Shown here in pieces: positions 1,484 through 59,720 of a stretch of 64,000 bases of DNA. Positions within the stretch are counted from its first letter, which is position 1. Each line of letters begins with the position of its first letter. The notes beneath the pieces were generated by a model. The model was not told the origin of the DNA, did not search any database, and saw only the letters and a program-made list of their open reading frames with translations. A program made the translations under genes and the position numbers. The DNA lies in contig JAIVFH010000027.1 in the NCBI GenBank assembly GCA_025765595.1, positions 124,001 through 188,000 on the forward strand. Reading direction: 5' to 3'. This DNA is from Obelidium mucronatum (taxonomy: Eukaryota > Chytridiomycota > Chytridiomycetes > Chytridiales > Chytriomycetaceae).

Positions 1484-4400
1484 TCACTTCCCACAAGTTG
1501 AAGTGTTATGACCAGTCTTCCCACAAGTTTTGCACTTATACACCCGCTTTTTCGATTCCTCAGACAATAATCCAGATAAATCCACACCATTGTTTAACTT
1601 AAGTTGTTTTGCTTTCGCTCTTGAAACTTCAGTGCAATGGGCAAATCGTTTTTGCGAAGGGCGCCCAACAGGCTGATGCCACTCAGGGTCTTTGACATCT
1701 GCACTTGTCTTCACAACATTTCGCATTTCTTGGGCCAGCTCTTGGAGCTTGCGCGTTTTATCTGGGTCATTCAAGGTAATTGCCGCTTTGGCAACAAAAT
1801 CCGAGCTTTCCATCAGTTGAGCATGAAAGGTTGTACTTGAAATATTGTTTTCAGTCGGTTTTGAAAGCTGTGAGAGTGATTGCAATACTTCAGTCATGTT
1901 CTGGGTTCTGCTGTTTCCAAGTTGCTGACATGTGAACTCCGGAACTGTTCCTCCTGCAATACCAGTGATTGGTTGAGAATTCACCAGTCCGTCAAGCTGG
2001 GAATGTTGCTGCAGATCTTCCTTGTACCAGCGTTTCAAGATGAAACTGATCTTAAACCCAGCATATCCTGACCGGATTGCGGAATAAATGTGAGCACATG
2101 GCAGACCCCAGTTGACAAGACGAAGGCAGCTGCAGAAAATATCACCAGAAGATAAAATCGACAGATACTGCTTGGATGACCCAGGTTGGGCAGAATGACG
2201 GCAAGACAGTACAGTTTTGATGTTCTCGTCACCAAACTTTGCTATCACTTCAAAGGCAGAACAGCAACGGTTTTCAGTTTGAAGCTCCCGCATTCGTGAT
2301 GGGAGATCTGATTCACAAGTTCGAGAATATTCCAACGGTTCTTCCCTCAATTGCTTCAGCTCATCATGCCAGACAGTTGAAATGTCGCTGACTGAGAAAA
2401 AAAAGCTACGGTTCATTTCTGATTTTTGGTCTCCTGCAACCCAGTCAGTGGAAAAGAGTCTGAGTTGCTGAATAACAGGATAAAATACGCGAGCCACTTC
2501 CCCACTGAATTTACGGTCAGTGACAATAGTAGAATGTATGTACTTGGTGTATATGTTGGTTGCTTGATCCTTCTGCTCAACACTTTGTGTTGCATCAAAG
2601 ACGTCTTTCAGTGACGGCTTTTTTGGTAGTCGACTCTTGTATATGTCATGTCTTTTCTCGTTTCGCTGATCTGCAAAAGAGCCCACAGTCATTCGCGTTT
2701 TCACCCAAGCCATTCCCCATTGCTCACGAATTCCATATAGATCCTTCAGAATCTCAGATATCCGCATCTTTGACTCAATTCCAATATCCAAAGTTTGCAA
2801 GTAGTTCTGATATGCACAGTAGGAGGCATCAAACTGACTTGATGTGAAGCAATTTCTCAACTCCCATAACAAGCTGTACAGCTCATTCCAATGCCTTCCG
2901 GCGCTTGGCTTACAATTCTTCACAAAGTTCAATATGAACAGGTGGAAAATACACGCAACACGGAACACATCAGGCCACGCTTTCAACATGGCAGACTCCA
3001 GCGATTTGTGAGCATCCTTGATAACAGTTTTTGGTTGAACATCAGGAAACACAACTTTCAAGAACGCAATCAACCATTCGTAAGCTTGAGCAGTTTCACG
3101 AACAAAAAACCAATGAAACAGAGAGATTGTCTTGAACTCATTCGAAATACCAGTCCCTGAACCAAATGGTATTTCCAGGGTATTTGACTTGGCCGTCATG
3201 TCCATTTGAATTACATCGTGATACAGAATGTAGTGGCGATATTCTGAAGGAGAAATCCAGGCAATGCAAGACATGCGACCATTCTCGTCAAGTAAAACTT
3301 GGTGGCGAAAGTAGGTGTTGAGACGGGCTTGATGTTCCATCTTGAGAATGAGTATGGAAGATTGAGAGTGGGACATTGAGCTGCTTCTGGCAATACGGCG
3401 CAAGTTGGTCAATACAGATTCAACAGCCCTTGGAGCCAAAACGCGGGTAACGCCATGGACTCGAAGATGCTTCTCCACGTCAGCCGCACCAATATCTACG
3501 TCAACGTATAGAGATATGAGTCGAATTTCTTCTGCACTAAATCTAGTAGCCGAGCCCAGAGAACCATAGCAACGTTCAATAGATGCATCAAAATTTTCAA
3601 AGTGGTCATCATGACCGTCAGTGAAATCGTGCAGAAGTAACAAGGCTCTGGCGGAATGTTCAGATAAACGCCAACTGGTGCCTGTGGCGCAAATATTTAC
3701 AGTAAAACCACAGTTGGTCTTGATACTGGTTGTGTTTCGTTGCCGCTCTGGATCGTTTTGAAAGTTGGATTTCACTTTGGATCCTTGGTTATGCTTCCGT
3801 CTGTTACAAGCAAGAGTATAACGTGTGTATGGTGGAGGATTAGGTTTTCCACGAAATTTGACCAAGGTGATTCCAAAACTCAAGAAGCCCTCCTGAAGTC
3901 CTCTGATAGCATCTTCAAAAGTTGGCCACGATTCGCAAGTAAGGTGCGCAATGAACTGCTTGTAGTTGGGTGGTAGCTGTAGAATCGGAATTGTGGGCAA
4001 GGAAGCTTGAACAGTGTCCACTTGAGTATGGGTCCTTTGGGCATTGGCAATTGCGGCGACTCCGTTGCTGATCGGGACGGAATCAACATTGATGGTTGAG
4101 GCGTCAAAAGACTCAGAAATGCCAGAGTTTGTGTTCACCAATCGAGATAAATAGATTCCAGCTTGAAGGTCCTCTTCATCCCTTGCGTCAGCAGCAAGTT
4201 TTGCGTCCCTTTCCTCAAGTCCAAGAGTACAAACAACTTTTCCCTTCACTTCTAGCAACAGGTACGAAAACATTTTATATCTAAATGGCATAACAGATTC
4301 CACGGTCCTGAATTATCTTTGAGTTTTGTTTAACTGTTTAAACCTGACAACTTACCAGCTTATGTATCCAATATCAGCAAGCTCTCTTGAAGCTGCTAAA

Positions 4401-54461: not shown

Positions 54462-54470
54462 GGATTTTAT
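54462..54470. repeat. Left target-site duplication of the second transposon
   Basis: GGATTTTAT, repeated exactly at 59712-59720. One more flanking G on each side also matches, so the duplication could be read as 10 bases, the extra base belonging to the element end on the right. Confidence 0.9.
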
Positions 54471-54484
54471 CAGGGGGGTGGCAA

Positions 54485-54927
54485 GTGAGCAAAATTTCTA
54501 CAAAAAATGAGTGAAATGTTCCCATACTGAGCGACTTTGTTCCTAACGACCTTGCTCCGGCATCTCAAATTGCTCCACGCTGAAATTTTCTGATGGCGCT
54601 AGTGAATAGCATATATATCCATTCGTTTTTTTAGAAAGGCAAAGAGCGTCATCAAGTAAGTGCTCGGAAGAAGTGTCAAACCATACCCAAATACTGAAAT
54701 AACTCCGCTAATAAGCGCGGAAGACATTTCCTATTAAACCCAAGCATATAATGTATCTACATAATGAGGCAGCACTATGTGGCGCTGCATAGATAATTTT
54801 TTTAATAATGGTATCCGTTGGTTGTTCTTTTATGTTATTTTCGGAAATAACTCGTAAACCAAAAGAGATGCAGCACCATGCTATCTTCCAGTGAAATCAA
54901 CGTATTTTTTTACATCAGCAGCACTAT
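54485..54927. other. 5' noncoding region of the second transposon
   Basis: About 440 bp lie between the left inverted repeat and the first ATG of the element gene. They contain short copies of GCAGCAC(T/C)AT near 54769, 54871 and 54918 that could be subterminal binding sites. I see no gene. Confidence 0.5.
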
Positions 54928-57900
54928 ATGAATTTTTTGTGGTGTCAGTTGTGTCATTCAGTAAAACAGTTGTACAAATTTGGAATCATTTTGAAATCGT
55001 GTGAATCCAAGAACAATGGGACGAAAGCGTGGTCCAACGCGAAGAGAGCAGCTACATATCGAATCAAAAGAGACCAGGCTAAAAGTCAAAGTGAGTCTGA
55101 TGCTGCCGACGATGAAAGAGGGTCTGTCCTGTTTCTGTCGAAAAGCAACAAAACCAACGAAAATAGTGCGGCAAATCCGGCGGCAGAGCCAAGAAAAGGT
55201 CAGTACATAAAACCTTGTGTTAGTATTTTCAATGTAATGAACCTAAGAACCAGGCGATTCCACAACTGATGAAGGGGACATTTCCGAATCTGATCAAATA
55301 TCCACCGACAAAGAAAACGTGAAACACGACAACCGTAAGTGCAGACTATCTAAAATTTATGGCTTAATCGACACAAAATAGGTTTCAAAGCCCCCTTACC
55401 TATGAAGCGACTGCCTCAGTCATCCCCCGAAACATCAAACATAATCAAAATACAGCGACCAAATCAGCTTTCTGATGCCAATCAATCCATGAATGCCACT
55501 TCAACGTCAGAGACAGAATCAAGATCAGATGGCTCAATTACGGAATCAGTGTCAGCAAAATCAAGGCGGGCTGCTGCAATGAACGCTGTGATCCAAACCA
55601 GTAAGAATGTGTGGTCCTCATCTGGAGCCTTGTTTCGAAAGTCTCGAGGGACCAATGGCATCAAATCACGCAGTTCAAGCCTTTCAAATGACAGAACCAA
55701 CGATTCTGCAATTCGTGAAAACACTGACGACGACCTGGATTATGAAGATATTCTGTTCAATGGCACAGAATCGAAACAGCGAATACATGTTAAGAAGGCA
55801 ACAAGATATCATGGTCACAATGTACCTTCAGTTGAAATTCACGGCCAAAGTCTTTTGCAACCAGTGTCAATTGACGGAGGAAAGCAAATTTATTACCTCT
55901 GTCGCCCCATCTCAGAGATCTTGAACGTGCAGATACAAGAAGGAGGAAATTGCATCCAAGTTGACCTAGACGGGATATCTGAACTTGTTGCAACGAAATC
56001 CCAGTTCAAGCGGCTCCTCCTGTTTCGATCTCGCAAATTTGTTCAACTGCTCTTTAATCTCAATTCTGGCAACTGTCAGATGCTCGCAGATTTCCTGAGG
56101 TACTTAAACTCCCACAGCTGGATTTTATCGAAATCTGAAGAACCTGTGGTTGTAAATCCAGCAGTTGAACCGTCAAAACAATTTAAGGATCTCCAAAAAA
56201 GAAATAAAATGTTGACCGAGAAGGAGTCAAAGGCCACAAAGGAGCTCAGAAACTTTCGGGAGCTGTTGCCAATTCAGTTGAAGAAACAATTCAAGAAGAT
56301 AAAACTTTTGGACGCCAAATCTCCAAAGTCGGAGTCTCGTTACACTATCATCAGTAGCCTGCTTGACGCGCTTGCCAAAGGAAATTACCACCCTGATCTG
56401 TTCAACTACAAGTTCTGTAACTCACAGTTCAAGTACGCAGTCCTGGACAATATTCGAGGCAGTGCAGCTCAGAATGCAGTTCCTTCCGAAGTGCTTCTCA
56501 TGTGGCTTCAGTTTGTTGCTGATTGCGGTAAAACTCCGTATGAGTATTTGCGGGGGAATGGGTTTAAACAAGAGTCTGACAATCTCAAGCCAGAAATTAC
56601 AGACCCAACAGAAACTGATGACAACTCAGATACAGGGGCAGAAATTGAACCGAAAATTAAATTTCGCAAATCTACTGTTCCCGAAAACCAAAAAAGCAGA
56701 GTTGGAGATCATTCTGGAGCTCTATTTCTTCCTCATATCCGCACAATCCAAAAAAAAATACAAGAGTTAAAGGCTAGCAATAAAACATTTGGCCTAAGCA
56801 AGAGTCGAGTTGACGAAATTGCAAAGCTGTGTAAGTTGGACAGACAGAAAATGGAAGATTTGGGTGGAGTTTTAGCACATGGCCATCAAACTGATGAAAG
56901 TGATATGGGCTTGGATGATGTCACTGTTTCTACGTTGCTGGGGAAGACTGTGATATTTGGTCTTCCTGATTATGGTGGACTTGAGGAAAGAGAAGAATGT
57001 CCATTCAAACTGTTACCAGGGATTGCAAAATCCAAAAATGAGGTACTTTGCATGTTTTATTTTGGATCTAACAAAGAAGCATGTAGTTGGAGAGAATTCT
57101 GAATTCATATCAAGAAAGAGTCGTAGCAGTTTCAAAAACGATGGCAGAAGGAAAGGATATCTTTACAACAAACGAAATAGTCAATGAGATCAAAAATCTT
57201 TTTGGAGATATTCTCAATGACATCCAAAAACTTCAAGCCTTTATTCAGTCAACACTCCAAGATGTCAAAAAATCGTTGCTAAGTGCTGAAAAACGATTAA
57301 AAAAGAAAGCAAAGGAAGGAAACGAGTTTAAAGAGCTCCACGGAAATGCCATTGCTGCAAAAGAAAGAAAAGAGTCCCGTTTGATATCACTTAGCAAGTT
57401 CAACGACAACTTCAATGCTCTGAAGCAAGATGTTGACAGCACACTTTCAAGTATTGATATTGACTATTGCTTTTTAAACTCCGACTTCCTTCAGAAACTT
57501 CTTTATAGCTGTTTGTCCTTGTTTCAATCAACTTCCCTTGCAGTTGCTCCTCGAGGGACTAAGCTAGAAATTCACCTTATCAGTGATTCCTTCCATCTTG
57601 GGTCCCATATTATTTTCTCATTTATTTCTGCCTCTGTAACTGCCGAATTATCCTGTTATTTTGGAAATTTAGTGTATGAGGAAATGGCACAGCGTGGAAT
57701 TCATTTATTATGGAAAGCAGCAGATGGACTAACAATTGCACATTCAATGTACAATGGTCGCCAGAGACCGACGACAGCTACAGCTGTGTTTAAACAATCT
57801 GTGGAGCAATTTGAACAAGAAATTTCAAGAAATGAATTGAAGAATTCATCTGCTGCTGCTACTCGGGAACTAAAACGTGAACGGAAGACACAATTCTTTC

Positions 57901-59639
57901 AATCTAGCTATATGGAGGCCATCATGACACTATCCGATCAGAAGCTATCAGGAAACTGCTGTTGGTTTCAGATTCCTCCCCTCCCACCCAGTTGTAATGA
58001 AATCTTGACAACAAAAAAGAAACCAACAGCAGGGAATTTCACACAACTTGAGTTTGTGGAAGCAACACGTGAATATCAGCTTGAGCTGAAGCGGAATCAA
58101 CTGATTGGTACCAGCCTTAAAATCAAAACAGCAACAAACCTGTGCAGTGGCTCACGAGAGGTGTATCTTTCTGTTTGCCAAAACAACGGAAGTATTCACG
58201 AAGTTCAACTATTGTCCAAAGGGGGAAAGCAGTTATGGGCTGAATTGTACCATCAAACAATGCAAGTGTGCATCGCTGCTGAGTGCGCCATTCTTTTGGA
58301 TTCAGAGCTTGACGAATGGTGTTACTTTATTAATTTTGTTTTGCAATTGGCAAAGCTGCGTGACACAGAGAATCTTGATTTTTTTCAGCACATGTACATT
58401 CCAGAAGTTAGAAATGGGGTGCCTTATGTTTCCATCTATGATTGGCCTCATCTGAATAAGTGCTTTACAACATCTGTTTCGGAAAATGGATTCACAGGAT
58501 TCATAACAAAGGACGAGGTCGAGAAGTTGCTCAATTCGAACTTGACTCTTTTGACAAATCGATTCAAAGATCGTGATAAACAAAAAGTGTTTGATGCAAA
58601 ATATTTTTGGAGTTTACCTGTTCAAACGGCGCTGGAATCATTGGGATTAACTGATGCCGCCAATTTTTGGCAAGTGGTTCGGGAGTGTGACGAAGCTTTC
58701 GACAATGATGGATTACTTGATTCTGAGAGAATTGAACGACAGCAGACATTCTTAATGGTATTGAAATCGAAGGTAATTTTTGGATCTTGAACTCTTAATT
58801 ATTTCACCGAAAACGCGAAACAGTTGATGCCGTCGCTCTACATGAACCCCCAATCCACACATTGTCCAAACCTTCGAATTTCAGAAAGAGAAATTAAGCC
58901 AAATCGACTCTTAGAAGGTGCATTACCATGGGATCAAGCCGTCAAAGCCATTTCATCATTGGAAGGAATCATGATCATCAAGACCCACTTGAAACTGATC
59001 CGAGAACAATTACCATGGAGGAAACGATACACCAACGTAATGAAAGATATTTCAATGGATTCGAGGCTATATTTTGCCACTCGGCGGGTCGCAAAATATG
59101 ATGCACAACTCAAACAAAATCAGGCAATCATAGGGGCGCTCAAGTCAGACGAGTCAGCGAAAATTGAAACCAATAATTTAGAATCGATAAACAGTCACTC
59201 CAAAGTTATTGCACTTGTCAACGATTCGGCTTTTGGATCCAATGACTGTGAATCACAGTTTTCTGTTTACAAACGGAAGCAAGGCCACACAGCTATGGGA
59301 CGCGTCAATTCGACGTCTTCTGAGCAAGCGACTCATGCAGCCCATATGCTCAGCTTATTGGATCGACAGAGCTTAAGAACACGACTCCGAGGTCGAACTT
59401 CACTTGGATACACCCCCTTCTCAAGAAGGCCCACAACGTTTCGCTCCCACAGACTTTTTAAAAATGTATACAAATGGGGAACTCCAGACTCCAGCCTCAA
59501 ACCGAATACAGCGATTCCAATTACAAAGAAAATAAGTACATTTGAGCGAAAAGAGAGGCAACAAAACAAGTCAGCCCAAACTTTCGATGCAGAAAAGGGT
59601 TCTGTACGAGGTTATCACAGAGGGGTTGCTGGTGCATGA
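54928..59639 (+). CDS. Candidate transposase of unknown superfamily
   Basis: Exons 54928-55198, 55254-55334, 55382-57042, 57087-58772 and 58824-59639 give exactly 1505 codons. I recognise no known domain. The first 140 residues are basic, then Ser/acid-rich (AKRAATYRIKRDQAKS; ESDAADDE). A helical stretch KQFKDLQKRNKMLTEKES follows. Later pieces look like an RNase H-type DDE core: a strand LEIHLISD (D838), the block IYDWPHLNKCF (D1123), where D-x-x-H-L-x-K resembles P-element/THAP9 transposases, and SNDCESQFSVYKR (E1376), similar to the last acid region of that group. These assignments are inference. The two frames at 54928-55200 both look open, so the start could instead be the ATG at 55017 (GRKRGPTRRE) with a different first intron. 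Confidence 0.7.
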
Positions 59640-59711
59640 ATTAAAGAGATTGGTTTTTGGGTCGTTTCTTTTTTTCATTGCCATTTTTTCTGGTTGATTG
59701 CCACCCCCCTG

Positions 59712-59720
59712 GGATTTTAT
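59712..59720. repeat. Right target-site duplication of the second transposon
   Basis: An exact 9-bp copy of the left flank, immediately after the right inverted repeat. Confidence 0.9.

Follow-up and report, generated by a model that had tools for sequence, protein, structure and literature searches.

A candidate superfamily of DNA transposons with 9-bp target site duplications in the chytrid Obelidium mucronatum

Structure of the element

The window, a stretch of 64,000 nucleotides from contig JAIVFH010000027.1 of the Obelidium mucronatum (Chytriomycetaceae) assembly GCA_025765595.1, contains at positions 54471-59711 a complete DNA transposon of 5,241 base pairs (bp), here called family I. 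Obelidium mucronatum is identified as the host because an NCBI protein of this species, P0001, is identical to the protein of the element over residues 450-1440. The element ends in perfect 14-bp terminal inverted repeats, CAGGGGGGTGGCAA at 54471-54484 (+ strand) and its reverse complement at 59698-59711 (- strand), and is flanked by an exact 9-bp target site duplication, GGATTTTAT, at 54462-54470 on the left and 59712-59720 on the right. Both features are as described in an earlier reading of the same DNA made from its letters and open reading frames (hereafter the sequence-only reading). The 48.3-Mb genome contains this exact 14-mer only at the two ends of the element, with 0.2-0.36 occurrences expected by chance, and a random pair of borders would show a 9-bp match with a probability of about 4e-6.

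Between the ends lies a single gene on the + strand, which after splicing comprises 1,504 codons and is interrupted by four GT-AG introns. In this splice model, exon 1 (54928-55198) is followed by intron 1 (55199-55253, 55 bp, phase 1), exon 2 (55254-55334), intron 2 (55335-55381, 47 bp, phase 1), exon 3 (55382-57042), intron 3 (57043-57086, 44 bp, phase 0), exon 4 (57087-58772), intron 4 (58773-58823, 51 bp, phase 0), and exon 5 (58824-59639), which includes the stop codon. The gene length and the number of introns agree with the sequence-only reading. Its description of the introns as in-phase was too loose, as their phases are 1, 1, 0, and 0, and the N-terminus is uncertain because the NCBI model of the gene, P0001 (1,498 amino acids), begins in a different first exon. 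For the alignments, introns were removed by hand and splice sites were picked by eye, backed by the NCBI model in the case of family I. Alignment places four landmarks on the + strand: a first predicted catalytic aspartate, D622, in the string TDESDMG of exon 3 (56893-56895); a second, D884, in the string AADG of exon 4 (57723-57725); a DxxHxxK motif, DWPHLNK, at residues 1123-1129 in the same exon (58440-58460); and a predicted catalytic glutamate, E1376, in the string SNDCESQFS of exon 5 (59250-59252). The D-x-x-H-L-x-K string and the late acidic residue that had been pointed out before are thus both present.

Related families in the Obelidium genome

Further copies with borders of this type and 9-bp duplications, which the sequence-only reading had suggested looking for, do exist: besides family I, the genome contains at least three families with ends of the CAGGG(G/T)GGTGG type. 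A search of the genome with the exon 4 open frame of family I revealed distant relatives at ten further places. By reading their borders, family II (ends CAGGGGGGTGGTGATC; copies C148, C56, C113, C58, and C66) and family III (ends CAGGGTGGTGG; copies C51, C10, and C34) were delimited; the other two of the ten places, C114 and C56:34 kb, hold fragments. A second search used the 11-bp pattern CAGGGNGGTGG, for which 100 of the 109 genomic sites were listed, and nine new convergent pairs less than 6 kb apart were picked by eye. Eight of these nine have an exact 9-bp duplication and represent one more copy of family II (C30) and seven copies of family IV (ends CAGGGGGGTGGGACT; C22, C179, C180, C225, C341, C3, and C78). 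Five of the family IV copies are 0.9-1.35 kb long and would be non-autonomous elements that depend on a full-length relative for mobilisation in trans. The ninth pair (G000:C31:221486-227402) was rejected as an insertion: it has no duplication, one flank is the reverse complement of the other, and it looks like two family IV left ends in an inverted duplication of the genome or the assembly.

In total, an exact 9-bp duplication was found in all 16 insertions of which both ends could be read (one in family I, three in family III, seven in family IV, and five in family II, namely C148, C56, C113, C58, and C30); C66, one end of which is missing, was left out of this total. Positions 1-11 of the termini read CAGGGTGGTGG in family III and CAGGGGGGTGG in the other three families. 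One end of C58 in family II, CAGGTGGGTGG, has one difference from CAGGGGGGTGG and two from the family III end. According to the Repbase rules, which state this rule for non-autonomous elements, an equal duplication length and termini with at most one mismatch in positions 1-11 define a superfamily (PMC4455052). On this rule, families I to IV belong to one superfamily.

In principle, an ordinary host gene could have come to lie between such ends and duplications by chance or through an assembly artefact. Such an origin would be in keeping with family I being single-copy and with the frequency of the bare pattern CAGGGNGGTGG, which is not enriched (109 sites in the genome compared to 113 for the backwards control), so that the evidence lies in paired ends only. 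The paired ends with their exact duplications in every case, and identical copies at different sites (see below), refute this explanation, and it is nearly certain that the element and its lineage are real.

Two decayed copies (L020, 3754-4027; L029, 2993-3260) have a stretch of 274 bp in common, at 95% identity. Beside it lie matches to the family I protein (34% in L020; 40% and 33% in L029). These copies probably represent a fifth family.

Conservation of the protein

The proteins of families I to III are homologous, with 19-28% identity between families, and a Rhizoclosmatium globosum protein shows 46% identity to family I. A core of about 900 amino acids can be aligned across these four proteins. 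Invariant within it are D62 and D65 (TDE.DMG) with YGG behind them, D328 (ADG), D554xxH557xxK560, R598-D599, E636-A637, and E806; the equivalents of the core landmarks in the window element are D622, D884, D1123/H1126/K1129, and E1376. A wider alignment also included P0003 (see below) and two family III relatives from Rhizoclosmatium hyalinum. In this alignment the first aspartate is kept in every sequence that covers the site. D65 is lost in P0003 and the tyrosine of YGG in R. hyalinum; D62 is therefore the better candidate for the first catalytic residue. The gene structures agree in part as well: family II has introns at the places of introns 3 and 4 of family I and in the same phase, and a further intron position, absent from family I, is common to families II and III. 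The pieces of the family IV protein follow the same order as in the other families, as judged by eye. In hhalign, family IV matched the profile with a probability of only 1% and a score of 25.9, compared to 13.3-20.9 for ten controls, and this weak match is best at the DxxHxxK motif. Because of this weakness, family IV was placed by its ends and duplications and not by its protein.

Protein searches retrieved six proteins: two from Obelidium, one from R. globosum, two from R. hyalinum, and P0003. These searches required shared exact words and scored about 8,000 candidates each, so distant relatives can be missed. All named relatives come from Chytriomycetaceae. Annotated relatives may be few because repeats were perhaps masked before annotation. 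P0003 (747 amino acids, about 40% identity to family I) has the source label 'lgn' and lies on a 5,032-bp contig. It is probably environmental and hints that the lineage extends beyond the named chytrid genomes compared here. Among the viral contigs scanned for relatives, 46 pattern matches were found and none was confirmed.

Comparison with known superfamilies

The sequence-only reading proposed that the element fits no known superfamily, and profile searches with members of the lineage support this. Pfam scans to an expectation value (E) of 10, which covered the family I and III proteins at full length and the core of family II without its N-terminus, revealed no transposase family. The same result was obtained with NCBIfam to E 1 for the scanned members and in sequence searches of the PDB to E 10. 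The eight matches of a PDB search with alignment A4 were weak (best E 0.095) and included no transposase. The silence of the PDB is no proof of a new element, however, because a control search with the genome's own P-like protein was likewise without a match. No paper on this transposon lineage was among those listed by the literature searches made. As internal controls, Pfam models for known superfamilies detected at least 41 hAT, at least 16 KDZ (Kyakuja, Dileera, Zisupton; 15 over the cut-off), at least six Mutator-like element (MULE), and at least two P-type RNase H matches in the same genome, none of which, among the matches listed, lies at the copies described here. Several of the KDZ matches (L038-L045 and others) are located in long open frames.

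The lineage might nevertheless be an aberrant branch of hAT, KDZ, MULE, or Merlin whose transposase has diverged too far for the family models. hAT elements share CAGGG-like ends with the lineage and move by cut-and-paste with staggered joining, as the lineage is predicted to do. MULEs make 9-bp duplications (8-9 bp as a class criterion), a length that a paper on barley MULEs reportedly gives as '9-bp TSD' (target site duplication) and that fits the lineage. A Merlin transposase model is presumably included in Pfam. hAT duplications vary, with recorded lengths of 5 to 8 bp (PMC12730594, PMC4482050) that include non-canonical ones of 5, 6, and 7 bp (PMC12730594); those of KDZ measure 7 or 8 bp (PMC12730594) and those of Merlin 8-9 bp (PMC4482050). 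The duplication length of the lineage hence fits Merlin as well as MULE but differs from hAT and from KDZ, with which the lineage shares its nature as a fungal DNA transposon and its presence in the Obelidium genome. The domain models also argue against a placement in any of these groups. The C-terminal hAT dimerisation domain (PF05699) and the MULE/MuDR domain (PF10551) match no scanned member of the lineage, whereas they were detected elsewhere in the genome, the latter at six listed places; PF18758 detects KDZ elements but has no listed match at the lineage loci; and neither a Merlin model nor any other Pfam transposase model matched the scanned members. An affiliation with one of these four superfamilies is accordingly quite improbable.

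A relationship to P elements is harder to dismiss. For the fly P element, the signature string is given as D230, D303, a D(2)H motif at D339, and E531, with an insertion domain that starts at the D(2)H motif (PMC8230255). In the aligned families, D, D, D(2)H, and E likewise follow one another in this order, and in both systems a long stretch follows the D(2)H motif: the distance from DxxH to E is 191 residues in P and 195-252 in the lineage, with the values for families II and III (195 and 198) close to that of P, which is a point against a separate superfamily. Inverted ends are short in both, those of the lineage being CAGGG(G/T)GGTGG. The lineage may belong to the P (THAP9) superfamily as a branch that diverged deeply, no longer carries a THAP domain, acquired insertions within its catalytic domain, and went from duplications of 8 bp to duplications of 9 bp. 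That the Obelidium genome itself contains P-type RNase H domains would be consistent with this scenario. However, the four aligned proteins have 261-278 and 208-238 residues in the first two gaps between landmarks, compared to 72 and 35 in fly P. No match to the Pfam models for the THAP, P-type RNase H, or GTP-binding domains was obtained to E 10 in the scanned proteins. P elements make 8-bp duplications in both fly and zebrafish (PMC7776569), in contrast to the 9 bp of the lineage. Comparisons by hhalign with the P-like and KDZ proteins of this genome remained at control level; as only one sequence of each was used, they are weak evidence. The lineage thus departs from the P superfamily in duplication length, landmark spacing, and domain models, and an origin as a P branch, for which the sequence-only reading had left room, is rather unlikely but retains a substantial minor share of the probability. 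Judging from the DxxHxxK motif, the lineage may be distantly connected to P in fold and mechanism without being a member, and its catalytic core may work like that of a P element.

The two P-type RNase H matches mentioned above (PF21787) lie at G000:C20:338087-338500 (L036) and C9:9500-9916 (L037), and one of them is accompanied by a sub-threshold match to the GTP-binding domain.

Recent movement and selection

Two copies of family III, C10 and C34, are 100% identical over 5,023 bp but have different flanks and different duplications, which indicates that this family moved recently. They are 725 bp longer than C51. The extra sequence (at about 2513-3228 in L026 and at the same place in L027) consists of a 9-bp repeat, GGGGATTTG, and a nested insertion of about 716 bp. 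The ends of the nested insertion are unlike those of the CAGGG(G/T)GGTGG lineage, and it is possibly a miniature element of the MULE type.

Selection was assessed from four family II copies by means of their large exon. In each of the six pairs the ratio of non-synonymous to synonymous substitution rates (dN/dS) lies below 1, with a range of 0.16-0.51. The three pairs that include C113, which are the most diverged, yield 0.16-0.17 (26.5-28.5 non-synonymous versus 44.5-46.5 synonymous changes). In the three close pairs the ratio is 0.29-0.51, based on small raw counts.

Interpretation and proposed mechanism

The best explanation of these data is a lineage of four families with a predicted DDE-type (RNase H-like) transposase, which would move by cut-and-paste and represent a superfamily not described before. 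We assign this explanation a probability of roughly 0.6. The suggestion in the sequence-only reading of a new or very divergent superfamily is hence supported, and, judged against Pfam, NCBIfam, and PDB sequences, a new superfamily is somewhat favoured over a very deep branch of P. Several observations weigh against the best explanation, in addition to the single copy of family I, the lack of enrichment of the bare pattern, the weak profile match of family IV, and the P-like distance between DxxH and E. In the three close family II pairs, the raw counts of non-synonymous changes are as high as those of synonymous changes or higher. The hmmscan searches are less sensitive than HHpred, which could still show a link to P or hAT. 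AlphaFold models of P0002 (with three sequences) and P0006 (with six) reached mean predicted local distance difference test (pLDDT) values of only 38.5 and 48.3, respectively, and are too poor for a comparison with the P-type fold, an RNase H fold that carries a helical insertion between strand 5 and helix 4. Foldseek and VIA-align comparisons contained no transposase among the 50 matches listed for each. The listed matches are mostly helical, in VIA-align chiefly to residues 112-306, and are neutral as evidence. In the P0006 model, weak strands at residues 69-73, 87-91, and 94-98 surround the first aspartate (D77) with block means of 40-57; they might be arranged like strands 1-3 of an RNase H fold, but this resemblance is not relied on here.

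If the core adopts an RNase H fold, transposition might proceed as follows. The transposase would bind the inverted ends, and D622, D884, and E1376 would carry out metal-dependent cutting and joining. The two ends would be joined to target strands nine bases apart, and repair of the gaps would produce the 9-bp duplication. The short family IV copies of 0.9-1.35 kb would be moved by the enzyme of a full-length relative acting in trans. At even odds, a more specific picture can be drawn of a new eukaryotic superfamily, characterized by CAGGG(G/T)GGTGG ends and 9-bp duplications, in which three large insertions (after the first aspartate, after the second aspartate, and after DxxH) split an RNase H-type core, compared to one in P. 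It would comprise at least four families in one genome, including small trans-mobilised copies and a recently active branch, and has been seen only in Chytriomycetaceae and in P0003.

DNA transposons fall into a small number of superfamilies, to which additions are rare. One count lists 17 cut-and-paste superfamilies (PMC8230255), and the 2015 Repbase table has 23 names of DNA transposons when Crypton and Sola are taken once each and Helitron and Polinton are included (PMC4455052). In this lineage the termini are clean, the genes are intact, introns are shared, and some copies moved recently. Should its core fold like that of P or hAT with different insertions, it would illustrate how large inserted domains can be accommodated in the RNase H transposase core, and it would provide a new integrating enzyme with a 9-bp stagger. 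Recognition of the lineage would also give a name to copies in chytrid genomes that repeat annotation may leave as unknown sequences or host genes.

A separate transposon is present elsewhere in the window: at positions 2939-3214 on the - strand (G000:C27:126939-127214), a MULE transposase domain (PF10551, E 9.2e-11) is encoded within an open frame of 942 amino acids.

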